From NCBI RefSeq assembly GCF_017356035.1, contig NZ_JAFIQX010000006.1:310001-374000 (forward strand): DNA of 64,000 nucleotides, given 5' to 3'. Source of the DNA: Longitalea luteola (GTDB taxonomy: Bacteria > Bacteroidota > Bacteroidia > Chitinophagales > Chitinophagaceae). A program made the translations under genes and the position numbers. Shown in pieces: positions 830-18,995 of the stretch (the first letter of the stretch is position 1; the number at the start of each line of letters is the position of its first letter). Under the pieces are notes generated by a model. That model was not told the DNA's origin, searched no databases, and saw nothing but the letters and a program-made list of their open reading frames with translations.

Positions 830-851
830 CGAATTGTAAAGCGTTTACTAT

Positions 852-2621
852 ATGAAAAATAATTTGATAGCCATTGGAATGGCTGCCGTTCTGTTTACCG
901 GATGTAAAAAGTTGCTGAACGCCGACGAGGAAAATATGCGGACAATAGAACAGATGTATACCGATCCCAGTTATGCGCAGGGCTTTCTTATGAATGCATA
1001 CCGGTCAATTCCCGCTTATTACGACAATACCGAATATGCCACCGATGATGCCGTGACCAACCAGCGAACAAATGCCCTTTTGCAAATGGCTACCGGTTCC
1101 TGGACGGCTGCCAACAATCCGGTAGCTGTATGGAACCAGTCTTACGGCGCCCTTCAATACATCAACCTGTTCCTGGCGAATGCAGATAAGGTAAACTGGG
1201 CGGCCGATCCCGAAGCGGCCCGGCTTTTTCAAATGAGAATGAAAGGAGAGGCCTATGGGTTACGGGCGCTTTATATGTATTTTTTACTGCGTGCACATGC
1301 CGGTTTTACGGATGACGGCCAGTTAATGGGTGTGCCTGTCATTACAGAACTTCAGGCGATCAATGCAGATTTCAACGTTCCCCGCGCCCCTTTCGACGCC
1401 TGTTTAAAACAGATCAACAAAGACCTGGATAGCGCAGAGGCCAACCTGCCGGTAGAATATAAAGATGCGGGTGCGGTAACCCAGATCCCCGAACGCTTCC
1501 GAACGGTAACGGAAAAAACGGCGGTCTACAACCGGGTGATGGGGGTTTATTCGAACCAATTGTTCAATGGCCTTATAGCAAAGGCGTTCCGCGCAAGGGT
1601 AGGATTGCTGGCGGCCAGTCCGGCATTTCAACATTCATCCAATACAACTACCTGGGCCAATGCTGCCGACTATGCAGCCGCGTTGATAGACTACAAAGGT
1701 GGGGTGAATGCCTTACCAGCCAATGGCGGAACTTTTTATGCGAACAACAGTGAAATTGACGGGCTGAGCGGGGGGAACAATCCAGGTGAAATTATCTGGC
1801 GGGAAAATATACTTACGAATAACAGCGACCAGGAGGCGCAGCATTTCCCGCCTTCGCTTTTTGGCGCCGGGAATATGAACCCAACCCAGAACCTGGTAGA
1901 TGCATTTCCTATGGCCAATGGATATCCCATTGGGCATAGCAGCGGCAATTATGATCCCGCAAATCCGTATGCGGCCCGCGATCCGCGGCTTGGTCGGTAT
2001 ATCATTTACAATGGAAGTACGGCGGGCGTAGGCAATCCGGTCATTTATACCGGCAGCCAGTCCGGTTCGGATAACGGGATCAATGTAAGGCCAACATCCA
2101 CCCGTACCGGTTATTATATGAAAAAGCGGTTGCGCATGGATGTAAACCGGAATCCCGCCTCCATAACCGGCAAGAACCGGTATATACCCCGCATCAGGTA
2201 TACAGAAATGTATCTGGCGTATGCAGAAGCGGCCAATGAAGCGTGGGGACCGCTGGGCAGTGGCAGTCATGCTTATTCAGCTTATGACGTTATAAAAAGG
2301 ATCCGCAGCCGGGCAGGGGTTGGCAGTGGCAACGGCGATGCATACCTGGAGGAGTGTAAGGCGGATAAAGATAAAATGCGCGAATTGATCCGTAATGAAC
2401 GCCGGCTGGAGTTGTGCTTCGAAGGTTTCCGTTTCTGGGACCTTCGCCGCTGGAAAGCCAGCCTCAATGAAGCGGCCCGGGGTATGGATGTTAACACGAA
2501 CGGTTACCGGCCTCTTACTGTGGAGAGCCGTTCATTTGAAGATCACATGTATTACGGACCTATCCCTTTTTCGGAAGTGCTGAAGTACAGTAACCTGGTT
2601 CAAAATAAGGGATGGAGATAA
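852..2621 (+). CDS. SusD/RagB-family starch-binding-like outer-membrane lipoprotein
   Basis: A 589-residue SusD-family protein, the surface lipoprotein lid of the SusC channel encoded just upstream. The N-terminus is a lipoprotein signal with lipobox LFTGC (Cys18). The N-terminal SusD region has the TPR-type 'EAYGLRALYMYFLLRAHAG' helix. The C-terminal half has the typical 'RIRYTEMYLAYAEAANEAWGP' segment, 'RNERRLELCFEGFRFWDLRRWK' and a final 'GPIPFSEVLKYSNLVQNKGWR'. Length is normal for the family. The start is the ATG that gives a complete signal peptide. Gene order SusC-SusD-lipoprotein-GH43 makes this a small polysaccharide utilisation locus. The ligand is not predictable from sequence alone. 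Confidence 0.95.
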   Translation: MKNNLIAIGMAAVLFTGCKKLLNADEENMRTIEQMYTDPSYAQGFLMNAYRSIPAYYDNTEYATDDAVTNQRTNALLQMATGSWTAANNPVAVWNQSYGALQYINLFLANADKVNWAADPEAARLFQMRMKGEAYGLRALYMYFLLRAHAGFTDDGQLMGVPVITELQAINADFNVPRAPFDACLKQINKDLDSAEANLPVEYKDAGAVTQIPERFRTVTEKTAVYNRVMGVYSNQLFNGLIAKAFRARVGLLAASPAFQHSSNTTTWANAADYAAALIDYKGGVNALPANGGTFYANNSEIDGLSGGNNPGEIIWRENILTNNSDQEAQHFPPSLFGAGNMNPTQNLVDAFPMANGYPIGHSSGNYDPANPYAARDPRLGRYIIYNGSTAGVGNPVIYTGSQSGSDNGINVRPTSTRTGYYMKKRLRMDVNRNPASITGKNRYIPRIRYTEMYLAYAEAANEAWGPLGSGSHAYSAYDVIKRIRSRAGVGSGNGDAYLEECKADKDKMRELIRNERRLELCFEGFRFWDLRRWKASLNEAARGMDVNTNGYRPLTVESRSFEDHMYYGPIPFSEVLKYSNLVQNKGWR

Positions 2622-2649
2622 TTTTATTAAAAGCTAAAACTTGACTGCC

Positions 2650-3693
2650 ATGAATAGGAATACAGGTTTTACATGTTTAGTGGCCGCTATCCTTGCGTTC
2701 ACCTCATGTAATAAAAATAAAGACGTTTCCTTTCCTGATTTCGATTATACAACCGTTTATTTCGCTTCCCAGTTTCCGGTGCGAACGGTTGTGCTTGGAG
2801 AAGATCTCACGATGGATAATTCCCTGGACAATGAGGGTAAGGTAGCTATCAAAGCCACTATGGGCGGGGCTCGTGGCAATAGCAACGACATACGCATAGA
2901 TTTTGAAGTGGATGAGTCGCTTTGTAATAAGCTTTATTTTTCAGCGGCCGGAGCAAAAGTAGTGCCCCTGCCCACATCACATTATTCGCTGGCAGCCGAT
3001 AAGATCACAATTCCTGCCGGCAGTATTCTGGGAGGCGTGGAAGTTCAACTCACAAATGCATTTTTTGCGGATCCGTTGGCGCTCGTGAATACATACGCCA
3101 TTCCCCTGACGATGAAGCAGGTGCAGGGCGCCGATTCGATCCTGCGCGGTGTTCCATCCGTTGACAATCCCAATCGCTGTATAGACGCCAACTGGACAAC
3201 GAAACCACGCGACTTTATTGTGTATGCCGTAAAGTTTGTGAACCAGTGGCATGGCTTCTACCTGCGCAGGGGCGCTGACGTGATCACGGGTAAACCTGGT
3301 TATTCAAATCTAGATCGCACTGTTACGCGGAGAAAGCAATATGTTGAGCAGGACGAGGTGAAAGGAATGACCACAAGATCGCTGACGAGTGTAGAACTGC
3401 CGCTGGTATTTCAAAACAGCAGCGGAGGCAATATCCCGATGAACCTTTTATTGACCTTTGATGGTAAGACGAATGATTGCAGCATTTCGGCTGCGGGCAG
3501 TGGTTACACGGCCACCGGCAACGGAAAGTTTGTAAAAAGAGGGGAGAAGAACAGTTGGGGTGCGCAGGACCGGGATGCAGTTTACCTGGAATATACAATT
3601 GATCATCCGATGATGCAGATCCAATCAAAGGACACCCTTGTTATGCGCAACCGCGGGGTAACGCCTGAATATTTTTCGCCTGTGGTGAAATAA
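2650..3693 (+). CDS. DUF1735/DUF5627-like surface lipoprotein of a SusCD locus
   Basis: About 347 residues from the ATG chosen here; a TTG three codons upstream is also in frame, but the ATG directly precedes a clean lipoprotein signal with lipobox FTSC (Cys20). The middle part ('YAIPLTMKQVQGADSILRG') resembles the DUF1735 (BT_3987-like) beta-sandwich domain. The part around 'VKFVNQWHGFYLRRGADVI' resembles DUF5627. Such proteins are commonly the third gene of SusC-SusD loci and are thought to be cell-surface glycan-binding or accessory lipoproteins. It starts 28 bases after SusD and belongs to the same operon. The domain names are from memory of the families. The role in binding glycan is inferred from position. 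Confidence 0.7.
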   Translation: MNRNTGFTCLVAAILAFTSCNKNKDVSFPDFDYTTVYFASQFPVRTVVLGEDLTMDNSLDNEGKVAIKATMGGARGNSNDIRIDFEVDESLCNKLYFSAAGAKVVPLPTSHYSLAADKITIPAGSILGGVEVQLTNAFFADPLALVNTYAIPLTMKQVQGADSILRGVPSVDNPNRCIDANWTTKPRDFIVYAVKFVNQWHGFYLRRGADVITGKPGYSNLDRTVTRRKQYVEQDEVKGMTTRSLTSVELPLVFQNSSGGNIPMNLLLTFDGKTNDCSISAAGSGYTATGNGKFVKRGEKNSWGAQDRDAVYLEYTIDHPMMQIQSKDTLVMRNRGVTPEYFSPVVK

Positions 3694-3771
3694 CTGTGTG
3701 GCAATAAATTTTATAAGGTATCAACACGATACACGGATTAACTGTGTTAAAATCAAAGTAAAAGAACAAAG

Positions 3772-5130
3772 ATGAAAAAAGCCGGATCAATATTAGCATG
3801 GCATTTAATACTCAACGGTGCAGTTGACGCCCAAAATCCGATCGTGCAAACAAATTACACGGCTGATCCGGCGCCGCTGGTTTACAATAATAAAATGTAT
3901 CTGTATACCAGCCATGATGAAAATAATTCCACGTGGTTCGTAATGAACAACTGGAAACTTTATACAACACAGGATATGGTCAATTGGACCGACCATGGAG
4001 CAGTGGCTTCCTATAAGATCTTTGACTGGGCTATAGGCGATGCCTGGGCCATTCACGTAGTGGAAAGGAACGGTAAGTTCTATCTGTATGCCCCGGTAAA
4101 ATCAGGCGAGAAAAGGCGTTCAGCCATTGGAGTTGCAGTGGCTGATAATCCTTACGGACCGTTTATTGACCCGCTGGGAAAACCACTCGTAAGCGTTGGT
4201 GGTGGAGATATAGACCCTTCGGTATTTATTGATGACGACGGGCAGGCTTATTTGTATTGGGGAAATCCAGATTGTTATTACGCTAAACTGAATGAAGACA
4301 TGATCTCATTAAAAGGAGAAGCGGTACCTGTTCCCATGACGGACCGGTCATTTGGCAAACGCGAAGGTAATGTAAAGGGAAGGCCTACTTTATACGAAGA
4401 AGGTCCGTGGTTGTATAAACGCAAGGATGTGTATTACCTGCTTTGGGCGGGTGGGCCTATTCCTGAACATATCGGGTATTCTACCAGCAAAAGTCCAACA
4501 GGACCCTGGAAGTATGGAGGAACGCTGATGCCTAATGAAGGCAAAAGTTTTACTAACCATCCGGGCATTGCCGATTACAAGGGTAAAACCTACTTCTTTT
4601 ATCACAATGGCGCATTGCCTGGAGGCAGTGGCTTTAACCGTTCGGTATGTGTACAGGAAGCGGAATTTAATAAGGATGGCGCCATAAACCCGATGAAGAT
4701 GACCGCCGGTATTGAAAAACCTTTACAAGTATTGGACCCATATCAGAAAACAGAAGCAGAAACAATTGCCTGGTCTGAAGGTGTGCAGGCTTCGCAAAAC
4801 AAAGAAGTAGGTGTTTTCATTAACGTTATGCAGAATAATGCATTCACACAGGTCAAAAATGTGAATCTCACCAGGGAAGGGGCCACCTCATTCAGGGCAA
4901 GAGTAGGTACAACGCATAACACAGGCGTAACTATGGAGGTGCGGCTGGATGCGAAAGATGGTCCGCTGCTGGCAACTGTAAAAGTGCCGTTAACGGGAGG
5001 CGACGACCGTTGGGCTGTAGTGCAGTCGCCTTTGCAAAAGGTAACCGGAATACACGATGTGTTTTTTGTATTTAAAGGTGAAAAGCCAGGTACGGTCATG
5101 TATTTCGACTATTGGATGTTCACAAAATAG
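3772..5130 (+). CDS. Glycoside hydrolase family 43 enzyme with C-terminal CBM6-like domain
   Basis: A 452-residue secreted enzyme with a signal peptide ending near 'VDAQ'. The five-bladed GH43 propeller shows its three acidic residues: general base Asp32 in '[16 protein letters not shown]', the pKa-modulating Asp148 in '[14 protein letters not shown]', and the general acid Glu210 in '[19 protein letters not shown]'. From about residue 322 ('[14 protein letters not shown]' to the end '[12 protein letters not shown]') the sequence looks like a CBM6-type jelly roll. GH43 enzymes act on arabinose, xylose or galactose linkages, most often as arabinofuranosidases or xylosidases. The combination with CBM6 favours arabinoxylan or arabinan, but this is inference. 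It is the last gene of the SusC-SusD locus; an intrinsic terminator lies about 270 bases downstream. Confidence 0.88.
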
Positions 5131-5403
5131 TCAGAAGTTTAGGGAGAGCTTCTTGTGTTTGGTGCATAGCGTTAATGGCTATGGCCATGATGGTCATGCA
5201 TGGCAACCCACACAAAAGTATCATTTCCAATACCGATAAAATGACAACATCTTACAAATCCTGACGACACTCATAGAAAACAGGCAAAAAAAAATTTGTT
5301 GGTTCAGGCTATATTTACCCAGGGAGCAGTGGGATCCAGGCAACTTTAATTGGACAAAGACAATAAGTCAATGTATATCTAACACAAATTCTCAATTAGC
5401 TAT

Positions 5404-5432
5404 AAACTGTGTCAAGACGACACAGTTTTTTT
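5404..5432 (+). terminator. Intrinsic terminator downstream of the GH43 operon
   Basis: A perfect 10-bp stem, AAACTGTGTC / GACACAGTTT, with a 5-base loop (AAGAC), followed by a run of T that continues to 5432 (seven T in all, the first three pairing in the stem). It is the strongest rho-independent terminator seen in the window. Because of the A tract on the other side it could also act on minus-strand transcripts. It lies about 270 bases after the GH43 stop and insulates that operon from the island. Confidence 0.8.
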
Positions 5433-5748
5433 ATGTACCAGTAAAGAAATATCTGGTTATAATAAGCTCAAGCACAAGCCCGCGTGCGCTATTGCGTTCC
5501 ACATCACGATCAGGCGGCATTCGCTCCGTTATCTCGCTCGCAATCTATATCGATATAGCATGCCTTTGTTTCCACAACTTTGTCAAACTCACGCCGGAAT
5601 ACCTCTTTTATCGAAACGTCCAACTACAGCGCTATAGCATAACTAACCGATAGCTATAGTTCAAGTAAATGGAGCACATATGGGAAAGGGCTACGGGTAA
5701 AAACAATTGTATTTTAGCCAAGTCACAAGTCAATTTTCTTCGCAACTT

Positions 5749-5825
5749 CTTTTAGACTTCTCTTAGACTGCCCTTAGGCTTCTTCGCAAATTTGCGAAGA
5801 ACTTGCGAAGGATTTGCGAAGAAGG
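5749..5825. repeat. Seven contiguous degenerate 11-bp units
   Basis: Reading from 5749 in steps of 11 gives CTTTTAGACTT, CTCTTAGACTG, CCCTTAGGCTT, CTTCGCAAATT, TGCGAAGAACT, TGCGAAGGATT, TGCGAAGAAGG. The first three are variants of one unit. The last three are variants of another, with TTGCGAAG recurring exactly every 11 bases (5792, 5803, 5814). The fourth is the inverted form of the latter, so 5780-5801 is a perfect 22-base palindrome. A further inverted copy, CTTCGCAA, lies at 5738-5745. Not coding in any frame over a useful length. Confidence 0.8.
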
Positions 5826-6404
5826 GTAAGCTCTGCCTTTGCTCAGTCCCGAAGAAGGTTAACAGCGCGTTCGGCTGTTAGCCGGTCTATTCATTGGTCG
5901 GCGTTTTTAAAACGCATTCACTAAAGATGTGGAGGTGACACGTATCAGCAATCTTCTTGCGTTTGATGTGCTGCAAAAGCGTTTCAGTTTGTTCTCTCAT
6001 TTTATTACTATTTGAAATTAAAGGGCGTAGGCGAAACTAGAATTACCGTGGCGTTACGAGTGAAAAATCCGTGAGACCAGCATCCAAATAAAATTGGCGC
6101 TGCGAAAAATTGAATGACGCAATGTTATTGTTTTATTTGACCAAAGAAGCTTTAATTATTTTTTTAAATAAATTGATTTACATCAAGTCGATAAATTGGT
6201 TGTAAACATAAATATATATAATATTGAAGTTTGTGTAGTGCGCAAGCATTGCCAGACGAGTTTCCCTTTTTAGTCTACAAGAGATTCCCCGTAACGCGCA
6301 ATACGTTGGCAATTATATATTGCCCATTTGGAATTAGCCAAAGTGCTCTCATAATTATCGAATTACTAATCATTGGAAAAGAAAAATTCAAAAGAGTATA
6401 GTAT

Positions 6405-9400
6405 ATGTCAATACGTGTAGGGCAGATTGTCAAAAATTTGATCCCAACTGAGGCTGTAACAATTGATAAAATACAACCTCTGGGAAACGACATGGTTTCA
6501 CTTAAGTTTACTGGTATAAACTCTAACAGAGCTAACTCGAAAATTATTGCTATAGATGACTTTGATAGGTTGGAAATGCTTACCGAAGAAGGAACATTTA
6601 ATTTTAAAGGTGACCCAACCAGATTTGCATTATTCGCCGAAGCTGAAAGAATTAATTCCGCTTACCAGTTTGATCCCTTATTCGCAGTTAATTGTAGCAT
6701 CGTAGACCCTTTGCCTCATCAGGTTGAAGCAGTATATAAGTTTCTACTACCATTACCTAAAATTCGTTTCTTACTGGCCGATGATACTGGAGCCGGAAAA
6801 ACGATTATGACAGGATTGCTCATCAAGGAATTAATGATGCGGGGTTTAGCTGATCGCATATTGATTGTAACGCCCGGAGGACTTACCAAACAATGGCAAG
6901 AGGATGAAATGGGCGTCAAATTCAACATCAGCTTTCAGCTTGTAAACAGAGCAAGATTTGCTACAGATCCAAATGTTTTTCAAACCTCACAAAGAGTTGT
7001 TACATCGATAGACTTTATATCTCGCGAAGACGTTCTAAATGTAGCAAGCAATTCCCATTGGGATTTAATCGTGTTTGACGAATGCCACAAATTGTCGGCG
7101 TATGATTATGGTATAAAGCAATACCTGTCTCAACGTTATAAAGCGGCAGAGGCACTTTCACAACAATGCGAGCACATTCTTTTGCTTACAGCTACTCCGC
7201 ACAGAGGCAGAACTGATACATTTAAAAAGTTATTGCAGCTGCTGGACCCAGATATATTTGCAACCGATGAAATAGCATCAACAAGAATAAAAGAATTAGA
7301 ACGCAATGGGATAAATAAGTTTTTTATTCGCCGCCTTAAAGAAGACATGAAAGATTGGCAAGGAAAACCGCTATTTAAGGAGCGCCATACAAGAACCGTC
7401 GCTTATGAGTTGACAGCGGAGGAAAAGGAACTTTACGATGCCGTTACAAACTACTTGATGAAAAAGAAGGAAGAGGCGTCAGAAACAAAGAACATACATG
7501 TTTCATTAGCCTTAACGGTTATGCAACGCAGGTTAGTAAGTTCCATTTTTGCAATAAAAAACACATTAGAAAGAAGATGGAAAGCGCTACAGGGGATCGT
7601 TGAAGAACTAATTCAAAACCCTAACCTTTGGAATCAGCGGCACAAAATGGAAGCTGCTTATAACCAGGTTGGAGATATTGACGATTTCGAAGATCTTGAA
7701 GATGATGAAAGAGATGCTCTAGAAAGTATATTATCAGACCCTAAAAAATTCAAGCTCTTTACAACAGCTAAAAATCCTCAAGAACTGCATCAGGAGGCCA
7801 AAGAAGTGAAAAGGTTGTTTGAGATGGCAGAGTCTCTATACAATAGAAAGCAGGAGGAAAAAAAATTCCAAAAACTACAGGAATTACTTAAATCAAATGG
7901 AGTACTCGAGGATGGCGAAAAGCTGGTAATTTTCACTGAACATAAGGATACGTTATTATATCTGGAAGACAGGCTAAGTAAAAGTGGAGGTTATAAAGTA
8001 GCGACGATACATGGCGGAAAGCAAGTGGACGAACGTAGAGAAGCACAAGCACAATTTTCAAAGCCTGATACTCAAATTTTAATAGCTACAGATGCTGCAG
8101 GCGAAGGTATAAATCTTCAATTCTGCCGCTTATTGATCAACTGGGATATTCCCTGGAATCCGAACAGACTGGAACAGCGTATGGGGCGCATCCATCGCTA
8201 CGGTCAAAAACAAGATGTTGTTGTTTCCAACCTGGTAGCCAGCAATACGAAAGAAGGCAAAGTGCTTGAAAGGCTGCTTACAAAGTTGGACGTTATCCGT
8301 GAGAGCATGGGTGACGACAGAGTCTATGACGTAATTCAGGATGTTTTAGAAAATGTAAGTCTGGATGCTGTTATTAATTCGGTATTTAATGGAAAAGAAT
8401 CGGCTCTTGATGAGTTTTTATCCCAGGATGACGAAGTTTTAAAGCTTAAATTTAGCGAAAAGATTAAGGAACAAAAAGAAAAGCTGGCCCATAGTACTGT
8501 TGACTATAGAGATGCCCGTTTACTTAAAGAGCACTCGGATGAAAAACGGCTACAACCGATATATATCCGACTTTTCTTTGAAAAAGCATTTAGACATATC
8601 GGAGGCGAATTTACCGAACTAAGGTCATCTATTTATCGAATGGATAAATTGCCAGAATCAATAGCCTCAACACTCCGCAAGAACCATACTATTTACGCCG
8701 ACAATATCAGGCAAATCCAATTTTGTTTTGATAAGCAAGTTTTTCTTGACTATCAGAATCTTGGAGATTTGGGCAAAGTTCATTATATCAATCCAGGCAA
8801 TCCAGTTTTCGATAGTTTAATTAAGGTCATTCGCAGCCAATACCGGGAAGACATGATAAAGGGTACTATTCTAATCTCTCCGGAGGATAAAGAAGGATAT
8901 TTTGCCTTCTTCGTAAAGTCCCAAATAATAGATAACAGGGAGAGCAAGAAGGAAGACAGCATAGCTGACGAGAGATTAATGATGGTCTACCAAACGAACG
9001 ATAAGTCTTTTCATATCACTTCGCCTGCCAAGTTCATAGATCTTCATGCTCCGGTTGGCTTTGCTAAAACAATCGCTCCGCCCGAAACAGTGAACACAAA
9101 TGAAGTAGTTCAGTGGAGCTTTGAAAATATCACGTTTCCACAATTTAATGAAACAAAAGTGCATGTCAAACAGGATTCCGTCGATAGGAGGAGGTTTTTA
9201 GAATCAGCTTTTACACAGGTGATCATGGATATGCAAATGGAAATACAGGAATTGCAAGGCAAAGTATTATTGGGCGATGCTAAAGTGCAGGATAAAATAT
9301 CGAAGCTACAAGAACGCATTAACGAAAAGATTAACAAAAAGAAGCAACGTTTAGAAAATTTGGCGCTAATGGAGCAATTAAGCCCTAAAGAACCAGAAAT

Positions 9401-9845
9401 TTTAGGCTGCGCTTACGTAGTACCATTAACGCAGGTTGAATATCATGCTCATTACGGAATGAGCCGGGATGATGAAGCCGAAGCGATTGCGATGCAAAAA
9501 GCAATGAATTATGAAGAAGTGCAGGGTTGGCTCCCTGAAGATGTATCATCCAACAATGAAGGGTATGACATACGAAGTATTAGTAGAGACGAATTGAAAC
9601 GATACATCGAAGTAAAGGGACGAAGTGGCGCCGACGGAAGTGTAATGTTAAGTGAGAATGAAATGAATCGGCTGGCTCAATTAGGTAACTCCGCATGGTT
9701 GTATATCATATTGAATTGCAAAGGTACACCTGAAATACATCGTATACAAAACCCTGCCAAACAGTTGACTTTTCAACAAATATCTAAGGGGGTTCAATAC
9801 TTTTTACCAATGACAGAATGGATAAACAAAGCTAGTGCCATATGA
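6405..9845 (+). CDS. SNF2/DEAD-type helicase with C-terminal DUF3883 domain, defence-associated
   Basis: A 1146-residue superfamily 2 ATPase. Motif I is 'LADDTGAGKT' (Lys132), motif II is DECH (Asp225-His228), motif III is 'LLLTATPHRG', and motifs V-VI are 'ILIATDAAGEGINLQ' and 'QRMGRIHRYGQ' (arginines 595 and 598). A charged helical stretch runs through about residues 350-500. The C-terminus resembles DUF3883, with Asp1055 in 'GYDIRS' and 'YIEVKGRSG' (Glu1069-Val-Lys1071), an arrangement like PD-(D/E)xK nucleases. Related helicases occur in DISARM (DrmD) and in the DUF1156/DUF499 cassette. Its stop overlaps the next start (ATGA), so translation is coupled. Codon and base use are much more AT-rich than in the flanking glycan genes, which suggests transfer. 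Role inferred: a DNA-translocating motor of an anti-phage or modification system. Confidence 0.88.
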   Translation: MSIRVGQIVKNLIPTEAVTIDKIQPLGNDMVSLKFTGINSNRANSKIIAIDDFDRLEMLTEEGTFNFKGDPTRFALFAEAERINSAYQFDPLFAVNCSIVDPLPHQVEAVYKFLLPLPKIRFLLADDTGAGKTIMTGLLIKELMMRGLADRILIVTPGGLTKQWQEDEMGVKFNISFQLVNRARFATDPNVFQTSQRVVTSIDFISREDVLNVASNSHWDLIVFDECHKLSAYDYGIKQYLSQRYKAAEALSQQCEHILLLTATPHRGRTDTFKKLLQLLDPDIFATDEIASTRIKELERNGINKFFIRRLKEDMKDWQGKPLFKERHTRTVAYELTAEEKELYDAVTNYLMKKKEEASETKNIHVSLALTVMQRRLVSSIFAIKNTLERRWKALQGIVEELIQNPNLWNQRHKMEAAYNQVGDIDDFEDLEDDERDALESILSDPKKFKLFTTAKNPQELHQEAKEVKRLFEMAESLYNRKQEEKKFQKLQELLKSNGVLEDGEKLVIFTEHKDTLLYLEDRLSKSGGYKVATIHGGKQVDERREAQAQFSKPDTQILIATDAAGEGINLQFCRLLINWDIPWNPNRLEQRMGRIHRYGQKQDVVVSNLVASNTKEGKVLERLLTKLDVIRESMGDDRVYDVIQDVLENVSLDAVINSVFNGKESALDEFLSQDDEVLKLKFSEKIKEQKEKLAHSTVDYRDARLLKEHSDEKRLQPIYIRLFFEKAFRHIGGEFTELRSSIYRMDKLPESIASTLRKNHTIYADNIRQIQFCFDKQVFLDYQNLGDLGKVHYINPGNPVFDSLIKVIRSQYREDMIKGTILISPEDKEGYFAFFVKSQIIDNRESKKEDSIADERLMMVYQTNDKSFHITSPAKFIDLHAPVGFAKTIAPPETVNTNEVVQWSFENITFPQFNETKVHVKQDSVDRRRFLESAFTQVIMDMQMEIQELQGKVLLGDAKVQDKISKLQERINEKINKKKQRLENLALMEQLSPKEPEILGCAYVVPLTQVEYHAHYGMSRDDEAEAIAMQKAMNYEEVQGWLPEDVSSNNEGYDIRSISRDELKRYIEVKGRSGADGSVMLSENEMNRLAQLGNSAWLYIILNCKGTPEIHRIQNPAKQLTFQQISKGVQYFLPMTEWINKASAI

Positions 9846-12800
9846 ACAAACCCAAAAAGTTAATTGAGGTCGCCATGCCGATCAAAGAAATATCGGCTGA
9901 AAGTGTTAGAGATAAATCTATAAGACATGGTCACATATCTACCCTTCATTTATGGTGGGCAAGGCGGCCTTTACCTGTATGCCGCGCCGTTGTATTTGCA
10001 AGTTTAGTTCCTGATCCATTGGACCCCCATTGTCCCCTGGCATTCAAGGAAGCAATTGAAATATTATTAGGTAGAGAGCACAACTTCGGCGATCCTTATA
10101 AACCTTATAAAGATATCCCCTGGACTTCTGTTTATGATCCAATGGAAGATAACTTGCGTAATCGGTTACAAATGTTTATAGGGAAGTTTACTGATGAAAT
10201 GCAACAACATTTATTGCATCAGAAACCCAAGCCTGGAGCCAATAACCAATTGAGTAATTATAGTTTAATAAAATGGGACAATAAGAATGATGAGGAAATT
10301 ATTAACAAGGCTCGAAAACTCATTTGGGTTGCTCATAACAGTGTAAATGACTCTGAAGTAAACGCTGTAACTCTCCTTGCTGGATATGATGAACATTATA
10401 AAGCCATAAAAACGGCGGAACAGGAGCTATATAGTATCCCGGATAGGCATATTCTTACTAAAGAAGTTAATGAGAAAACAGAAAAGCTAGAAAATGCCAT
10501 TGAAGCTTTTTTAAATAAAATGCCGAAGGTGTTTGACCCCTTCGCTGGTGGAGGCGCAATCCCGTTGGAAGCAGCCAGGTTAGGCTGCAAAAGCTTTGGA
10601 AATGACATTAACCCTGTTGCTCATATTATCCAGAAAGGCAGTTTAGAATTCCCTCAAAAGTTTGGCAAGCCTATTACTTATAGCAAAAGAGCATTTATTG
10701 AAACTTATGGCATAAAAGAATGGAGTAAGCAACCACATGAAAATCTAATTTATAAAAACGGTGAGCCAATTGCTGTTAACATATCAAACCGCCTAAGTTT
10801 TGACGTACAATTTTATGCTAAACAAATATTGGCAGAAACCGAAAAAGAAATAGGCCATTTATACCCGTCAGATAAGGATAACAACAAGCCAATCGCTTAT
10901 TATTGGGCAAGAGTAGGCACATGTAGTAATCCAAGTTGCAACGGGAAAATCCCTTTATTAAAAACTTTCTATTTGGCTAATACAAAGACTAAGCAAGTTT
11001 ACCTAAAACCCAAAATCAAAAACAAATCAATAACGTTTGATATCCAAAAAGGAGAATGCAAAGAAGACAGCTGGTTATCTCGAGGCAATTTACATTGCCC
11101 AATATGTGGCAATATCACTGATGTGAACACCCTAAAGCAGCAATTCGTAAATTATAAAACCACTGAAACACTAATTGCGGTTATTTGTGAAGGGAAAGAA
11201 GGAAAGGAATATCGGTTGCCATACAAAAGTGAAATTGACATATTAAACAAAATCCCTTTAACTTCCGAGAAACCACCTGAAATAATGCCGGTGAAATACA
11301 CTCAAGCCCTTCCTTCATGTACTTGGGGAATTACGAAATGGAGTGACATGTTTACTGACAGGCAGATAGCAATGCTTCAAAAATTAAACAATAGTTTAAA
11401 TCGTTTAAAGAAAGATTTACCAGATAAAACGACTGAGTATGCAAAAGCGATAATTTGCTATTTGGGAATATTTTTCGACAGGATTGCAGTGGCGAATACT
11501 TCCTTCGGCGTTTGGCATACTGGCGGCGAAAAATTAGAAAGGATAATGGGGAGGCAAGCCATCTCAATGGTATTCGACTACCCAGAGAGTAATCCATTTT
11601 GCAATTCTTCAGGCAGTGCGTTAAATCAATTGGAATGGATAACAAGATATATAGAAAACGAATGTCAACACCCATTCTCGACCGTTTTACATAATGCTTC
11701 AAGCGGGGAGAAATCACAGTTTCAGGATAAATATTTAACAACCGTTGTTACAGACCCTCCTTATTACGACGCTATAGCTTATGCAGACTTATCCGACTTC
11801 TTTTATGTTTGGCTAAAAAGAACATTGGGAGATGTTTTCCCAATGAATTTTGCTACGCCCCAAACACCAAAATCGGAAGAATGTACAGCATTGAAACATC
11901 ATCATGACGGCAATGCTCAAAAGGCTAAAACACATTTTGAAAACAAATTATTACAAATATTTGACGCCATCGAACACCAAACATCAGACTTAGTTTCCAT
12001 AATGTTCGCACACCAGAGTACAGAGGCTTGGACTACACTCTGCAATTCTATTTTAGGAGCCAGAATGAATATTACTGGTTCTTGGGCTACCGATACAGAA
12101 ATGACAGGCGCATTAAAGAGTGACAAGTCATTTTTATCATCTTCCGTTACTGTTTCTTGTATGCCTACAAACAAAAAAAATGTTGGCAGCTTTAAAGCAG
12201 TGGAAAAAGAAATAAAACAAAAGGTCGAAAAAGAGGTGGAATTGTTATATAGTTTAGGTTTCAGGGGCGCCGATTTATTAACAGCGTGCTTTGGACAGGC
12301 TGTTAGTGTTTTTGGAATGTATGAAATGGTTGAACGAGGTGATGGCGAAGAGGTAACGGTTAAAAAGCTGCTAGAAATTGCAAAGGAAAGCGCTTTTAAT
12401 GCGTTACTGAAGGGATTTAACGGAGATGACTTTACGAAATTCTATATCGGATGGCTACAGTTATATGGTTTCGCAGAAAGTGAATTTGACGATGCTGCAA
12501 AGTTCAGTCGTGTAGGTTTAAACATAGACGTACAGGAACTTTTTACAGAACATATTTTAATAAAAGATGGCAATAAGCAAAAGCTGAGCAACTTCGACCA
12601 GCGTTTGAGCCGTAACAAAGCATTGGGCGAAAAACCTAATGGCTTTTTAATAGATCAGGTACATAGAGCTATGGCACTCTTTAAAGGCACCAATCGATCG
12701 GCTTTATTGCTTTACATAGATAAAGTAGCATCACAGCCTGAATGCAAATTCTGGAGAGTTATTACTTCTCTTTGTGAAGTATTGCCATCAGGATGTGATG

Positions 12801-12907
12801 ATCACAAGCAAGCAACTGGTTTACTTTTTAATAAAGACATCGTAATAAGAGAGAGCAAAATTATTAAAGCAGGAACTACTGAACAAGCTAAACTTTTTGA
12901 TAATTAA
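9842..12907 (+). CDS. DUF1156-domain DNA methyltransferase, defence-associated
   Basis: A 1021-residue predicted amino-methyltransferase for DNA adenine-N6 or cytosine-N4. The N-terminus has the DUF1156 signature 'PIKEISAESVRDKSIRHGHIS' followed by 'LHLWWARRPLP'. The SAM-binding motif is 'VFDPFAGGG' (Asp232-Gly238), and the catalytic motif is DPPY (Asp638-Tyr641) in 'TVVTDPPYYDAIAYAD'. The 400 residues between them hold two cysteine pairs (Cys361/Cys366 and Cys419/Cys422), probably a zinc ribbon, and could contain target recognition. The order of SAM motif, long insert, then DPPY is alpha-like. The start overlaps the helicase stop; DUF499 follows after 11 bases. DUF1156 methylases are known companions of DUF499 ATPases and SNF2 helicases in predicted defence loci. 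The modified site is unknown. Confidence 0.88.
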   Translation: MNKPKKLIEVAMPIKEISAESVRDKSIRHGHISTLHLWWARRPLPVCRAVVFASLVPDPLDPHCPLAFKEAIEILLGREHNFGDPYKPYKDIPWTSVYDPMEDNLRNRLQMFIGKFTDEMQQHLLHQKPKPGANNQLSNYSLIKWDNKNDEEIINKARKLIWVAHNSVNDSEVNAVTLLAGYDEHYKAIKTAEQELYSIPDRHILTKEVNEKTEKLENAIEAFLNKMPKVFDPFAGGGAIPLEAARLGCKSFGNDINPVAHIIQKGSLEFPQKFGKPITYSKRAFIETYGIKEWSKQPHENLIYKNGEPIAVNISNRLSFDVQFYAKQILAETEKEIGHLYPSDKDNNKPIAYYWARVGTCSNPSCNGKIPLLKTFYLANTKTKQVYLKPKIKNKSITFDIQKGECKEDSWLSRGNLHCPICGNITDVNTLKQQFVNYKTTETLIAVICEGKEGKEYRLPYKSEIDILNKIPLTSEKPPEIMPVKYTQALPSCTWGITKWSDMFTDRQIAMLQKLNNSLNRLKKDLPDKTTEYAKAIICYLGIFFDRIAVANTSFGVWHTGGEKLERIMGRQAISMVFDYPESNPFCNSSGSALNQLEWITRYIENECQHPFSTVLHNASSGEKSQFQDKYLTTVVTDPPYYDAIAYADLSDFFYVWLKRTLGDVFPMNFATPQTPKSEECTALKHHHDGNAQKAKTHFENKLLQIFDAIEHQTSDLVSIMFAHQSTEAWTTLCNSILGARMNITGSWATDTEMTGALKSDKSFLSSSVTVSCMPTNKKNVGSFKAVEKEIKQKVEKEVELLYSLGFRGADLLTACFGQAVSVFGMYEMVERGDGEEVTVKKLLEIAKESAFNALLKGFNGDDFTKFYIGWLQLYGFAESEFDDAAKFSRVGLNIDVQELFTEHILIKDGNKQKLSNFDQRLSRNKALGEKPNGFLIDQVHRAMALFKGTNRSALLLYIDKVASQPECKFWRVITSLCEVLPSGCDDHKQATGLLFNKDIVIRESKIIKAGTTEQAKLFDN

Positions 12908-12918
12908 TAGAATATCAT

Positions 12919-15711
12919 ATGCTACCTTGGTTTAAAAATGTGAAACCCCACAAAGATATTCAAAACGGATATCTTGATGAATCTATTTTTGCTGCTAACC
13001 TGGCTGACGTGGCAGCAGGAAATGGTCGAGAGATTTACAGTAATCCTGAGATGTTTTTTTCCAAAACTTTTTTCACATCCGGCTTAAAGAATATAGCCAA
13101 GCGGGTGATACAGGGCTTAAATGGTGGTCAGGACTCAGACAATCGCGTCGTTTCCTTACAAACTGGATTTGGTGGTGGTAAAACACATACAATGATCTCT
13201 CTTTATCATCTGGCAAAATGGGGTGAAAAAGCGAGTGAAAGTGTTTATACAAAAGGTCTATTGAACGATATTGGAAAACCTGAATTTAGTTCAGCAAACA
13301 TTGCTGTTTTTACCAACACAACGAATGATCCTGAACAAGGAAGAAAGGTAGAAGGTCTCTCGATCAGAACAATATGGGGAGAATTGGCCTTTCAATTAGG
13401 TGGACTGGAGGCCTATGATATTATCAAAGCCAATGATCAAAAGTTAGTAGCGCCTAAAGGATTATTTAAAGCTGTTCTGGAAAAATGCAAACCAGCCTTA
13501 ATATTAATTGATGAACTAGCGGATTACTGTGGAAGTGCTGCTGGTGTAAAGGTCGTTGCTTCCAACTTGGGTGATCAAACGATCAGCTTTATGCAGGAAT
13601 TGACAGAGGCTGTTTCCGGTACCGACAATTGTGTATTAATTGTTACGCTGCCTGCTAGTGCGCATGAACTGGCGTCTTCACCAAATTCCGCTCAAATTCT
13701 TACTGCTCTTGAAAATAGAATAACTAGGATTGGGGCTAATATGAAACCCGTTGAAGATGAAGAGATTTTTGAAGTAGTAAGAAAACGTCTTTTTGAGGAT
13801 TTGGGTAATGAGGATGAAATAGAAAAAGTAGTTTCAGCCTATTCCTTGATGTATCAATCATTGTTGACAGAAATCCCAAGTTATGCAATGAAGTTGGATT
13901 ATAGAGCAAAATTAAAGAAATCATATCCATTTCACCCGGAATTAATAGATATGTTCCGGTTACGGTGGGCTAGCAATCCTTATTTTCAACGTACAAGAGG
14001 TGTTTTAAGAATATTAGCGGCGGTAATATTCGATCTTTGGAAAAGGCAAACATCTTTATCGGGAAGTCATTTTCTCATTCACACATCTGATGTTGTATTA
14101 TCGAATATCGAAGCTATTACCAGCCAAATTACAATTTTAAATGGAACCGGTTGGGATTCTGTTATCGATGCCGATGTTTCAGGAACATCTTCCAACGCAT
14201 TCCGAATCGATAATGAAGTTAAAGAACTAGGAAAATACGATTTAACTCAAGGATTAGCAGCTACCATCCTGCTAGGAACTTTTGGATCTAAAGGCCAGAA
14301 CAAAGGCATGGGAATTGATGAACTAAAATTATGTATGGTTAAACCAGAAAGCTTTAATCATAACGACATTAATGGCACACTAGATCGCATTGAAAGAATC
14401 GCCCATTATTTATATTTTAGCTCATCCGGTCAAAAAAGGTATTGGTTTGACACAACACCTAACATAAATATTCTTATTAATCAGGCTAAAGGGGAAATTG
14501 AAAAAAACAAAAATGATATATTTTCAGAAGTAATAAAACGTATTAAAGAGAAAACAAAGTCAGTAGTATTATTTACTGTTTTAGTTGATCCCCTGGACGA
14601 AATACCTGAGCAAATCAAACCGACATTAATAATTTTGAGTCCAAAATATTTAGCTAATCCAAATGAAGTAAATGGTAAAACTAAACCAGTTATTGAAAAG
14701 ATAGCAACAAAAAAAGGGAATAGCGAAAGGATATACCGCAATACCATAGTTTTTTTAATATGTTCGGAAATTGGTATTGGTAAACTTCAAGAAGATATAA
14801 AAAATTACCTGGCCTGTCAAAAGATCAACAGCGAATACAGCACCCAATTAAACGCAGAACAAAAAACAGATATTGGTAAACGAATCAAAAATGCCAGTGA
14901 ACAAATTGACTGTTCCATAGTTTCAGCCTATTCTATAGTCGCAAAGTACTCAGCAAATAACGGTGTAGAAAAATTAATTATAAAGCAGTTTAAGGACAGC
15001 TTTGAAAACCAAATAAACACAAACATCATTAGTGCTTTGAAAGAGGAAGAATGGCTTTTGGAATCGGTCGGATTAGGAATTTTAAAATCCAACAACTTAC
15101 TTCCCTCGCTCGAAAGATCAATAAAGGTAAAAGATGTTTATGAAGCATTTCTGCGATTCGATGATAAACCAATGATAACAGGGCCTGATGCCATTTCTAA
15201 AAGCATCTTACGATATTGCATGAATGGTGAAATTTGCATTGCAACAGGAGATGGCATTTCATTCACCAAGTATTTTTTCCAGGAAAATGTTCCTTTTTTT
15301 GATGTCACTGATATTACTTATTGGCTTGTCGATAAAAGTTTAAAACCAGGGAAAAATTCAACTAAATCATCTTTTGCAACATATGGAAGTGAAGAAAACG
15401 ATATTTCCCTTTCGCTAATAAATGAGGCAGGTGGTTCTGATATGTATAGAAACTCAATTTACTCTGGCATTTCAGCTGTAAAGCAACTTAAATCAATAAC
15501 TATTTCAGGAAGGGTTCCTTTAGAACGTTATACGGAATTATTTAATTACTTCATAACACCATTTGCTATGTCTGGGAACAAAATTGAGATAGACGTAAAA
15601 TTCAAGATTTCTTCAAATGCAGGAAATCCTATTGATGAAAGCAAGCAGCAATACAAATCGGCCAAGGAAGCTAGTAAGCAATTGGGATTAAACTTTGAAG
15701 AAGAAAATTAG
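12919..15711 (+). CDS. DUF499-domain P-loop ATPase, defence-associated
   Basis: A 930-residue AAA-type ATPase. Walker A is 'TGFGGGKTHTM' (residues 82-92, Lys88) and Walker B is 'ALILIDELADYCG' (Asp198-Glu199). A sensor-like 'NCVLIVTLPASAHELASSPN' follows at about 235-255, then a winged or helical C-terminal half without a motif I can name. No signal peptide or membrane segment is visible. DUF499 proteins are found beside DUF1156 methylases and helicases in predicted phage-defence cassettes; by size and layout they recall the large ATPases of BREX, though that comparison is only structural intuition. It is the last gene of the operon. No DUF3780 gene, which I recall as a frequent partner, lies downstream before the next glycan gene. 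Confidence 0.85.
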   Translation: MLPWFKNVKPHKDIQNGYLDESIFAANLADVAAGNGREIYSNPEMFFSKTFFTSGLKNIAKRVIQGLNGGQDSDNRVVSLQTGFGGGKTHTMISLYHLAKWGEKASESVYTKGLLNDIGKPEFSSANIAVFTNTTNDPEQGRKVEGLSIRTIWGELAFQLGGLEAYDIIKANDQKLVAPKGLFKAVLEKCKPALILIDELADYCGSAAGVKVVASNLGDQTISFMQELTEAVSGTDNCVLIVTLPASAHELASSPNSAQILTALENRITRIGANMKPVEDEEIFEVVRKRLFEDLGNEDEIEKVVSAYSLMYQSLLTEIPSYAMKLDYRAKLKKSYPFHPELIDMFRLRWASNPYFQRTRGVLRILAAVIFDLWKRQTSLSGSHFLIHTSDVVLSNIEAITSQITILNGTGWDSVIDADVSGTSSNAFRIDNEVKELGKYDLTQGLAATILLGTFGSKGQNKGMGIDELKLCMVKPESFNHNDINGTLDRIERIAHYLYFSSSGQKRYWFDTTPNINILINQAKGEIEKNKNDIFSEVIKRIKEKTKSVVLFTVLVDPLDEIPEQIKPTLIILSPKYLANPNEVNGKTKPVIEKIATKKGNSERIYRNTIVFLICSEIGIGKLQEDIKNYLACQKINSEYSTQLNAEQKTDIGKRIKNASEQIDCSIVSAYSIVAKYSANNGVEKLIIKQFKDSFENQINTNIISALKEEEWLLESVGLGILKSNNLLPSLERSIKVKDVYEAFLRFDDKPMITGPDAISKSILRYCMNGEICIATGDGISFTKYFFQENVPFFDVTDITYWLVDKSLKPGKNSTKSSFATYGSEENDISLSLINEAGGSDMYRNSIYSGISAVKQLKSITISGRVPLERYTELFNYFITPFAMSGNKIEIDVKFKISSNAGNPIDESKQQYKSAKEASKQLGLNFEEEN

Positions 15712-15734
15712 GCATCACATTTTCTTTACAGATT

Positions 15735-15752
15735 GCAAAGTCTTTGCTTTTT
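15735..15752 (+). terminator. Weak intrinsic terminator candidate after DUF499
   Basis: A short hairpin GCAAA-GTC-TTTGC followed by five T, 24 bases after the DUF499 stop. The stem has only five pairs with a three-base loop, so it is weak; position is the main argument. Confidence 0.35.
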
Positions 15753-16122
15753 AAAGAAGATCATTTTCCAGATTAACTCTTTGTTCTAGCTAGAATATTA
15801 TCCGATAGTTTGGAAATTATTTTAGTAATTCTAGAATAAGGAATTAATTAGTTTATGTGCAGGTGGAAGATTTGCAGCATTTTTTGTTTTGCTAAGGTAA
15901 TCGTCAAAATTCAAAACAACCAATATAAGAGTTTTCTACCGGGCCATGATTACCGGTTTTACCTGCATAAAAAAATAGATCTCGCAATTTTCTCGGGAAA
16001 GAGCGCTCCATTACCCATTGCCAGAGCTGCAACATGTTTCTTCGCAGATCCGGATACAAGTATCTAGTCTCGCACGAAGATCGGATTCGCCAGCTTCAGG
16101 ATCCTATAAAAACAGCTGCCAT

Positions 16123-16243
16123 GATCGGGTCGATTGAAAGGAACGCATAGTATATTGTTTGTTTACTGTTAGAGTATCAGTTATAGTAAAATCAAAAATA
16201 ATGACCATACAATAGCAATCCACCTGTTATTCACGACCCGATC
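16123..16243. repeat. Perfect 10-bp inverted repeat bracketing about 100 bases
   Basis: GATCGGGTCG at 16123-16132 and its exact reverse complement CGACCCGATC at 16234-16243. The match does not extend either way. It could be a long stem-loop leader, a binding-site pair, or the ends of a small remnant element at the island border. No coding capacity lies between the arms. Confidence 0.6.
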
Positions 16244-16251
16244 TAAAAGAA

Positions 16252-16267
16252 TAGCGGTAAACCGCTA
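16252..16267. promoter_or_regulatory. Palindrome in the leader of the GH2 operon
   Basis: TAGCGGT-AA-ACCGCTA, two perfect 7-base arms with a two-base centre, ending 19 bases before the GH2 start codon. The symmetry fits either a dimeric repressor site or an RNA hairpin close to the ribosome-binding region. No regulator gene is adjacent to support one reading. Confidence 0.45.
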
Positions 16268-16286
16268 ATCAAGTGACTTTGGCAAT

Positions 16287-18995
16287 ATGACGAAACTTAC
16301 CCTAAGCTTTTTTGCCCTGCTGTCGTTTTACCTGATGCTCTGCCCGGTCACCGCTCATCCACAAACCAGGCAATCCTTGAATAGTACCAGCCCCGGAATA
16401 GTATGGCAAATTACGCCCCAGGCCGACCTGAAAAACTCCGGCGCCGACATCTCCACACCAGGTTTTAAGATCCCTGGTCATATAAAGGGTATTGTGCCTG
16501 GCACCGTGTTCACCGCCTATGTAAACGCCGGCATCGTGCCCGATCCCAACTATGCCGATAATATTTACAAAGTTGACGAATCCTTCTTTAACCGTCCATT
16601 TTGGTACAGGACCGAATTTGAACTCCCCGCCACTTACGTCAACGGCCAACGCGTATGGCTTCATTTTGACAATACCAACCGCTTTGCTGATTTCTATTGC
16701 AACGGGACCAAATTATCGGGAACTCCTACATCCACTAAAGACGTCAGCGGCCACATGCTGCGCACAAAATATGATATAACCGATCTGGTTAACAGATCCG
16801 GCAAAAATGCGGTGGCCGTTTTGATCACGGATGCTGATCAAAAAAAGAAGCGCAACTCCAAAGAAAGCTTTGGCGTTGCCGCCAGTCCCACCTACCTGTC
16901 GGCAGCCAGTTGGGACTGGATGCCTTATGTACCGGGCAGACTAGCCGGTATTACCGGCAATGCGTATCTCGAGATCACCGGCGATGTGACCATGGAAGAT
17001 CCCTGGATCAGGTCAGAACTGGAGTCGAATGATATTGCTTATTTATACATCTCTTCAACCCTGAAAAACGCGTCTGCTGCCAAACAGGATGTTACCATTT
17101 CGGGCGTAATTCAGCCCGGAAACATCCGGTTCTCCAAAAAGATCACCCTCGATGCGGGCGCTGCTTCAACAATCTACCTCGACCGGAAAGATTTTCCGGA
17201 ATTCATCATCAACCATCCCAAACTCTGGTGGCCCAATGGGTATGGCGAACCGAATTTGTATACCTGTACCCTAACCTGCAGTACAGGCAATAACGTGTCG
17301 CAGGTAAAAGAGATCTCTTTCGGTATCAGGAAATACGAATACCAGTTTGTAAAAAATGCCGCCGGATGGCCGGTGATGACCTTTTTTATCAATGGTCAGA
17401 AATTATTTTTAAAAGGAGGTAACTGGGGAATGAGTGAATACCTGCTTCGTTGTCATGGCGAAGAATATGAAACAAAGGTGCGGTTACACAAAGACATGAA
17501 CTATAATATGATCAGGTTATGGACCGGCTGCGTTACCGACGATGAGTTGTACGACTATTGCGACAGGTACGGTATTATGATCTGGGACGATTTCTGGTTA
17601 TACGTGGCCTACGACGACGTTGCCAGTGATGATGACTTTAAAGCCAATGCCCTTGATAAAGTAAAACGGTTGAGAAACCACCCCAGTATTGCCTTGTGGT
17701 GCGGCGCCAATGAAACACATCCCAAACCTGAATTGGATAATTACCTCAGATCGATCGTGGCGCTGGAAGACCATAACGACAGGATGTATAAATCCAGCTC
17801 CAACCAGGATGGTCTCTCGGGCAGTGGATGGTGGGGCAATCAGCCGCCCAAACACCACTTTGAGACTTCCGGCAGCAACCTGGCCTGGAACAAACCGCCT
17901 TATCCGTATGGGTCAGACCGCGGTTATGGCTTGCGGTCAGAGATAGGGACAGCTACCTTCCCAACCTATGAGAGTGTAAAGAAATTCATTCCTGCCGGCC
18001 AGTTATGGCCGTTGCCAACAGACGATGCTTTAAAAAACTCGGATACCAGGGTCTGGAACAGGCATTATTTTGGTAAAGAAGCTTCCAATGCCAATCCGCT
18101 CAATTACAAAGCTGCCGTAAATAAACAATTTGGTGAATCGGCCGGGCTCGAAGAGTTCTGCGAAAAAGCGCAATACCTGAATATTGAAGTGATGAAAGGT
18201 ATGTACGAGGCCTGGAACGATAAAATGGGACACGATGCTTCGGGACTGCTGATCTGGATGAGCCAGTCGGCTTATCCTTCCTTCGTATGGCAAACCTATG
18301 ACTACTACTACGATGCCACCGGGGCCTACTGGGGCGCCAGAAAGGCCTGTGAGCCTTTGCATATTCAATGGAACGCTTCCAACAACAGTATCAAGGCAGT
18401 TAATACAACGTCAAAAGACCTCCAGGGCGCAACCGCAAAAGCCACCATCTATAATCTCCATGGTAAAGAACTTACGCAGCTGGGCAAACAGGCGCTAATA
18501 AATGTTGCGTCCGGCAATATAACCGAAGCATTTACCCTCGACCTCAATGGAAAAAATACCGGAGCGGATCTTACGCCCCTTCATTTTATCAAACTGGAAC
18601 TAAAAGATGCTGCAGGTAACCTGTTGTCTGATAACTTCTATTGGCGAAACGGCGTTTATGACCTGGATTACACCAGCCTTAATACCTTGCCGGCGGCTCA
18701 ACTGTCATGTAAGCTGATTGGTAAAGAGTCGCTTGACGGAACCGGAAAGCTGCAGGTGCTGGTGAAAAACAATTCCAACACCGTAGCCTTCGGAAACCGC
18801 TTGCGATTGATCAACAAAACCACACAGGAACGGGTGCTGCCGGTGATCATGTCGGAAAACTATTTCACCTTACTGCCTGGTGAAGAAAAACGGGTGACCA
18901 TAGAAGCAGCTGCCAAACTGCTTACAGGCGGCGTAACGGTGCTGTTGAAGCAATACGGGCAAAAAGAAAAAAAGCAATTTTCTGTTGATCGCTGA
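16287..18995 (+). CDS. Glycoside hydrolase family 2, beta-mannosidase / exo-beta-glucosaminidase type
   Basis: A 902-residue secreted enzyme with a signal peptide ending near 'CPVTAHPQT'. It has the GH2 order: sugar-binding jelly roll ('RPFWYRTEFELPATYVNGQRVWLHFDNTNRFADFYCNGT'), immunoglobulin-like domain, then TIM barrel. The acid/base is Glu476 in 'LWCGANETHPKPELDNYL' and the nucleophile is Glu552 in 'GLRSEIGTA'. The SEIG motif and overall length match the branch containing exo-beta-D-glucosaminidases and plant mannosylglycoprotein endo-beta-mannosidases more than LacZ. The next three genes are alpha-mannosidases, so cleavage of the core Man-beta-GlcNAc bond of N-glycans, or of beta-mannosides, is the likeliest job. 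Substrate is inferred from context; GH2 assignment is secure. Confidence 0.88.
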   Translation: MTKLTLSFFALLSFYLMLCPVTAHPQTRQSLNSTSPGIVWQITPQADLKNSGADISTPGFKIPGHIKGIVPGTVFTAYVNAGIVPDPNYADNIYKVDESFFNRPFWYRTEFELPATYVNGQRVWLHFDNTNRFADFYCNGTKLSGTPTSTKDVSGHMLRTKYDITDLVNRSGKNAVAVLITDADQKKKRNSKESFGVAASPTYLSAASWDWMPYVPGRLAGITGNAYLEITGDVTMEDPWIRSELESNDIAYLYISSTLKNASAAKQDVTISGVIQPGNIRFSKKITLDAGAASTIYLDRKDFPEFIINHPKLWWPNGYGEPNLYTCTLTCSTGNNVSQVKEISFGIRKYEYQFVKNAAGWPVMTFFINGQKLFLKGGNWGMSEYLLRCHGEEYETKVRLHKDMNYNMIRLWTGCVTDDELYDYCDRYGIMIWDDFWLYVAYDDVASDDDFKANALDKVKRLRNHPSIALWCGANETHPKPELDNYLRSIVALEDHNDRMYKSSSNQDGLSGSGWWGNQPPKHHFETSGSNLAWNKPPYPYGSDRGYGLRSEIGTATFPTYESVKKFIPAGQLWPLPTDDALKNSDTRVWNRHYFGKEASNANPLNYKAAVNKQFGESAGLEEFCEKAQYLNIEVMKGMYEAWNDKMGHDASGLLIWMSQSAYPSFVWQTYDYYYDATGAYWGARKACEPLHIQWNASNNSIKAVNTTSKDLQGATAKATIYNLHGKELTQLGKQALINVASGNITEAFTLDLNGKNTGADLTPLHFIKLELKDAAGNLLSDNFYWRNGVYDLDYTSLNTLPAAQLSCKLIGKESLDGTGKLQVLVKNNSNTVAFGNRLRLINKTTQERVLPVIMSENYFTLLPGEEKRVTIEAAAKLLTGGVTVLLKQYGQKEKKQFSVDR

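Follow-up and report, generated by a model that had tools for sequence, protein, structure and literature searches.

Which kind of system do three large genes within a glycan-use gene cluster of Longitalea luteola encode, and which of their products would decide the DNA on which it acts? The genes lie in a 64,000-nucleotide stretch of the genome (the window; contig NZ_JAFIQX010000006.1, positions 310,001 to 374,000). A preliminary description had taken them for a SNF2-type helicase with a DUF3883 tail, a DUF1156 methylase and a DUF499 ATPase, and had read them as an unusual minimal form of a self-contained restriction-like system. Pfam and PADLOC both bore out these family calls. The top PADLOC matches of the three genes, which are adjacent and on one strand, were HmaA (1.6e-206), HmaB (2e-129) and HmaC (6.9e-146), so that homologues of all three proteins are encoded together, as defines Hma. 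The operon is a real and intact copy of the already catalogued three-gene Hma defence system, and adds one more example to a known kind.

Hma was named in 2021 as a candidate system by Payne et al. (PMC8565338), whose account counts 1,638 operons of three genes, spread over 26 phyla; the phage tests in the parts of that paper drawn on here concern systems other than Hma. It was renamed Type-1 BREX-Related (BR) by Rakesh and Krishnan in 2026 (PMC12839542), who describe Type-1 BR as ATPase, methylase and helicase only, the most widespread form (2446 taxa), with a helicase–nuclease fusion in 79% of these taxa and a HEPN fusion on the DUF499 protein in 1370 of the 2446. The arrangement of a SNF2–DUF3883 helicase beside HEPN–DUF499 proteins had been noted as restriction-modification-like already in 2013 (PMC3710099), and phage defence by an HmaA-type helicase–nuclease is credited to Liu et al. 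2024, as cited in PMC12839542. A three-gene operon is therefore the usual Type-1 BR form rather than an unusual one, at least in that survey, while ‘self-contained restriction-like system’ appears a sound reading of the Pfam families and PADLOC matches. The family is widespread, while its mechanism is mostly inferred in the literature (PMC8565338 and PMC12839542, in the parts used here).

All three genes are on the + strand and uninterrupted, with no internal stop in the translated frames. hmaA (6405–9845; 1146 aa) encodes a SNF2-family helicase with a C-terminal PD-(D/E)xK-type nuclease domain, hmaB (9842–12907; 1021 aa) a DUF1156 amino-methyltransferase with a presumed target-recognition insert, and hmaC (12919–15711; 930 aa) a DUF499 P-loop ATPase with no N-terminal HEPN fusion. 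hmaA and hmaB overlap by ATGA at 9842–9845 and hmaC follows hmaB after 11 bases, the layout first described. The remark that nothing else fits around the operon holds for genes of ordinary size; the flanking gaps (5131–6404 and 15712–16286) still contain or overlap ORFs of 30–72 aa, when ORFs of at least 30 aa are counted. No Rfam family reached its gathering threshold between 5000 and 16500. Promoter-like sites (42, against 34.1 in shuffles, s.d. 5.1) and terminator-like sites (13, against 9.1, s.d. 3.2) exceeded expectation by amounts within about 1.6 s.d.

In HmaA, Pfam matched SNF2-rel_dom (2.3e-16), Helicase_C (8e-27) and, at residues 1025–1114, NOV_C (PF13020, 2.6e-19; formerly DUF3883), each above its cut-off. 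The helicase motifs are present (K132 in DDTGAGKT, and DECH), and GKT and DE[AC]H are conserved in 19 of 19 aligned helicases. So is the nuclease motif, G[YF]DI...IE[VI]K, which in the window reads EGYDI...RYIEVKGR (residues 1052–1073; 9558–9623, + strand) and by which HmaA has the predicted C-terminal PD-(D/E)xK nuclease that is a Type-1 BR trait. Among proteins of solved structure, RapA is the closest to HmaA in sequence (E 9.4e-42).

HmaC gave DUF499 (PF04465, 1.6e-54, residues 136–785) as its sole Pfam match, with no match to HEPN. Its Walker A (GFGGGKT) and Walker B (LILIDE) motifs are in place, and GGGKT is conserved in 29 of 29 aligned ATPases. Structure models built from four-row alignments were of low confidence for both proteins (mean pLDDT 34 for HmaA and 33 for HmaC), so that the published TUDOR, inactive REase and RRM parts are not visible in them; the ATPase of Type-1 BR is described with wHTH and RRM-like domains at its C-terminus.

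HmaB matched DUF1156 at residues 11–60 (PF06634, 1e-22), so that both profiles by which the first reading could be checked, DUF1156 and DUF499, were found above their cut-offs; every active motif named for the three proteins was also located, including DPFAGGG and DPPY in HmaB. DPPY is conserved in 25 of 25 aligned methylases (as for the other two proteins, rows of at least 800 aa). The variable region of HmaB lies between motif I (DPFAGGG) and motif IV (DPPY), at residues ~300–600 (10739–11641, + strand). Between these motifs stand four cysteines, C361/C366 and C419/C422, a Type-1 BR trait that likely forms a Zn site; they are kept in six close rows and not in several more distant ones. HmaB is termed an m5C methylase in the relevant part of PMC8565338, a label that clashes with the DPPY motif and with the text of PADLOC's own HmaB profile, which reads DNA-adenine methylase.

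How firmly the operon belongs to Type-1 BR can be judged against its nearest alternatives. It has the same three genes in name order, the helicase–nuclease fusion, the DUF1156 methylase, the DUF499 ATPase and no fourth gene, and differs from Type-1 BR in nothing categorical: an HmaC free of HEPN is also what PMC12839542 gives for those of the 2446 Type-1 taxa that are not among the 1370 with the fusion. DUF3780, correctly said at the outset to be absent, matched none of the three operon proteins in Pfam, and the three-gene form without it is likewise seen when the ORFs of the flanking gaps are considered. In PMC12839542, as far as drawn on here, DUF3780 occurs in 98% of Type-2 BR taxa, and in most (83%) the helicase has an HKD nuclease. 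Since DUF3780 marks that different subtype, its absence here is expected and normal, and we rejected the idea that this operon has lost it.

Type-2 BR shares the homologous ATPase, methylase and helicase core, but where its helicase would carry an HKD nuclease, HmaA ends in a PD-(D/E)xK-type domain. Pfam matched no DUF3780 and no PLD/HKD domain in any of the three window proteins, and we rejected Type-2 membership on these grounds. In the methylase and ATPase trees the window is also far from three Type-2-like loci (L061–L063), of which L061 alone has a profile-confirmed DUF3780. Type-3 BREX, as described in the part of PMC12839542 used here, has a homologous ATPase, helicase and methylase with a nested recognition insert, but the operon contains no PglZ or other BREX gene. 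Type-3 BR and BREX were rejected since none of the three genes matched PglZ or iSTAND (BrxB/BrxF-like) profiles; at 1e-5 the PADLOC matches of the ATPase were confined to HmaC and DUF499. HmaA resembles the DISARM protein DrmD (PADLOC 1.7e-132, NCBIfam 2e-120), but scores 403.8 bits against an NCBIfam DrmD cut-off of 610, and in PADLOC 686.7 bits with the HmaA profile against 441.5 with DrmD. With DrmD below its cut-off and no other DISARM gene in the operon, DISARM was rejected too.

The operon sits between GH43 and GH2 genes, with no visible defence island, and stands out there by composition: its G+C is 36–39% against 48% in the flanking genes measured, and its GC3 0.29–0.37 against 0.45–0.60. 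Within the family, 4 of 294 genomes (the host is one of them) match HmaC, and the HmaC profile finds 34 of 395 genomes of a phylum sample; DUF499 is found once in the host genome and in two of ten genomes of the genus (the host and G003). No DUF499 match was obtained in G001, which among the genus members has the right flank most like the window's and a GH2 gene 90% identical to the one there. Over the 19.9 kb compared, G001 aligns with the window's first 26 kb only from position 16320 on, at 88%. To the left of the aligned region G001 has other genes, the host counterparts of which are on another contig (81%), and it holds no close counterparts of the genes left of the operon (best GH43 49%; best DNA matches to 17–5130 65–73%). 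Given the low G+C, the patchy presence and the absence from G001, the simplest reading is that the operon was probably acquired horizontally. No exact 12-mer is common to both flanks in the same orientation, and hence no attachment site was found. Among plasmid records, 143 of 72,556 match HmaC, one at 60–80% identity and 142 below 60%; phage records gave no HmaC match, and one tblastn scan of viral contigs no relative of it.

Relatives were drawn from 28 loci around DUF499 matches, 16 of which encode each of the three proteins with a length of at least 800 aa; a single scan of genome contigs with HmaC as the only query added close relatives alone, at three loci. Rows of the alignments and trees (19 for HmaA, 25 for HmaB and 29 for HmaC) had at least 800 aa and more than 60 bits to the window protein, with fragments and contig-end pieces excluded: L040, L045, L057 and L064, for instance, have no full HmaA, and L041, L049 and L058 just partial pieces of one gene. 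An HmaA-like piece of L050 was removed by hand. Operon order is conserved, at A-B-C in 15 of the 16 full loci and B-x-C-A in L059; four of the 15 are compact (L007, L008, L048 and L054) and 11 have at least 0.9 kb between core genes, an interval whose content varies from locus to locus (NsnABC in L009, PtuA/PtuB in L042, other ORFs in the rest).

The closest operons, with HmaC 71–75% identical to the window's, are in three MAGs and in G499, a genome of another family of the phylum (L054). The MAG loci are labelled Bacteroidetes (L007), Deltaproteobacteria (L008) and Sphingobacteriales (L009), labels that may be wrong. All three gene trees, made by a quick method with SH-aLRT support only and with long branches flagged, gave the same broad locus groups and placed the window with these four loci and then L053; the deeper joins, on long branches, are unsure. 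Within the group, the partner of L009 is L007 in the HmaA (91) and HmaB (99) trees and L008 in the HmaC tree (100), so that the genes have apparently not always travelled together and some reassortment is possible.

A conserved fourth gene had been named at the outset as a finding that would count against a three-gene system. An all-against-all blastp of 202 flanking ORFs of at least 60 aa found none common to the six closest loci within their flanks, which reach only 268 bases before hmaA in L009 and ~340 after hmaC in L054. One flanking-ORF match joined close loci, a DUF3987 gene in L007, where it lies upstream, and in L009, which also has an integrase. The profile scan covered part of the neighbour genes of these loci. 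Defence or mobile neighbours are clear in two of the five closest relatives, L007 and L009; L008 has weak candidate-defence neighbours only, and none was recognised among the few ORFs scanned in L053 and L054.

Where these close relatives differ most bears on which protein reads the DNA. Change is concentrated in the HmaB insert: among six close rows it is 40–54% identical, against 57–79% for HmaB residues 1–300 and 620–1021, and the five closest operons are pairwise 76–90% identical in the helicase–nuclease and 71–81% in the ATPase. Over the ten pairs of the five closest rows, mean identity is 47.5% for HmaB 301–600, 72.0% for HmaB 1–300, 73.2% for HmaB 620–1021, 80.8% for HmaA and 75.4% for HmaC. 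The lowest 100-residue stretches in the same rows fall to 38% in HmaB (at 431–560), 49% in HmaC (residues 811–910, a stretch that could also recognise something) and 67% in HmaA. Across six rows, identities of the insert did not follow those of HmaA (Spearman −0.32; 563 of 720 permutations as high), whereas those of HmaC did (0.92; 5 of 720), as did HmaB 1–300 (0.73; 31 of 720) and HmaB 620–1021 (0.87; 7 of 720). The same missing correlation could also result from saturation of a fast-changing insert, in place of exchange.

The pattern varies among groups of loci. Among L042, L043, L044 and L046, of a second group, all six pairs have their lowest identity in the insert (for L042/L043, identity is 91 for HmaA, 97 for HmaC, 98 for HmaB 1–300 and 72 for the insert). 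When these four are paired with L047 or L048 (eight pairs), the insert and the remaining HmaB vary to about the same degree, and between L047 and L048 the insert is 73% identical against 71% for HmaC. A third group (L056, L057 and L064; three pairs) has an insert that is no faster, at 66–76% against 66–73%, and is thus the one of the three groups examined that does not show the effect.

Fast divergence of recognition domains is established, and is cited for Type-3 BREX in the portion of PMC12839542 used here; what bears on mechanism in Hma is the contrast of a variable insert with a conserved effector. An insert that diverges independently of HmaA, while the helicase–nuclease and ATPase stay conserved, suggests that the methylase is the specificity determinant and that HmaB sets specificity for modification and restriction alike. 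We infer an effector with no fixed site of its own, for which HmaB picks the site, as in BREX, where methylation and defence both need site binding by the methylase, according to the part of PMC11842806 consulted. A bolder and tentative form of this idea, which we hold at somewhat less than even confidence, makes Hma a three-gene counterpart of Type I restriction: HmaB would be the sole specificity subunit, and exchange or rapid change of its insert would retarget both activities with the helicase–nuclease and ATPase unchanged. Close relatives that are HEPN-free, differ in their methylase inserts and conserve the other subunits would be a handy test bed for where specificity is located.

Our main reading, to which we give a probability of about 0.75, is that the window holds a complete, horizontally acquired Hma system that acts on unmodified DNA. 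In it, host DNA would be marked by HmaB, whose central insert would select a short site and which most likely methylates adenine there (or cytosine at N4). The most likely task of HmaC, a DUF499 AAA+ ATPase, is to assemble the complex on DNA or to license it. On meeting unmodified sites, HmaA would use its SNF2 motor to travel along the DNA and its C-terminal PD-(D/E)xK domain to cut it. Family membership, intact motifs, the conserved gene order and the clustering of change in the HmaB insert are observed, whereas methylation, cleavage, the part played by the ATPase and the double specificity of HmaB are inferred.

HmaA might instead respond to phage DNA structures or replication intermediates, in an abortive or damage-sensing system whose methylase merely protects the host. 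This has some footing in PMC12839542, which in the part used here proposes that DUF499 proteins sense invaders through their own domains and that HEPN fusions are suicide effectors; HmaC does have its own variable stretch, and in L053 a Swt1-like HEPN match reaches 26.4 bits, just below the 27.5-bit cut-off. We nevertheless consider it unlikely here, as the window's HmaC, which starts 11 bases past hmaB, lacks a HEPN match, and the strong diversification of the HmaB insert in close relatives fits site-based marking of self and non-self.

Much less probable still is that the operon methylates DNA mainly to regulate genes, its helicase and ATPase acting in remodelling. RapA, the nearest solved relative of HmaA, is an RNA polymerase-associated protein, and this copy is located among glycan-use genes; patchy presence (the 4 of 294 family genomes), low G+C, the nuclease motif in all 19 helicases and the defence or mobile neighbours of L007 and L009 all speak against a regulatory role. 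That the operon is a degenerate or inactive remnant seems least credible of all, given that the three frames are full length, keep their motifs intact and either overlap or lie 11 bases from each other.

Several features of individual loci complete the description. Other defence genes were seen beside or between core genes in some relatives. An Argonaute gene (12796–14883 in L007; PADLOC pAgo 5.8e-235, Pfam Piwi 6.3e-13) begins 17 bases past the hmaC stop codon. A complete NsnABC candidate set (6777–10001 in L009; PADLOC 5e-128, 5e-113 and 4e-51) lies between hmaB and hmaC; a literature search on the Nsn names gave nothing related among the matches listed. L042 has a Septu pair between hmaA and hmaB (5091–7147; PtuA 5.6e-174, PtuB 8.8e-40), and Septu-like ORFs were seen by eye in L041, L043, L044 and L046; a frequent link of Hma with Septu is noted in the part of PMC8565338 used here, and nuclease genes inside such loci in that of PMC12839542.

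L059 encodes a 1450-aa protein between its methylase and ATPase genes (8313–12665), which scores 40 bits to HmaA and near its end has, by eye, a stretch like the HmaA nuclease motif (NRGYDLVV...YFVVEVKG). In L061, from G003 of the same genus, DUF499 and DUF3780 proteins are encoded with a homologue of the DUF1156-type methylase (9580–16370), a Type-2 BREX-Related-like set. In the window itself, the interval between the GH43 gene and hmaA contains a repeat of ~135 bp (5732–5866) whose core is palindromic. This repeat has five further copies (112–135 bp, 92–96% identity) on four other host contigs, and folds strongly as RNA (−40.6 kcal/mol, an energy given without shuffle comparison).
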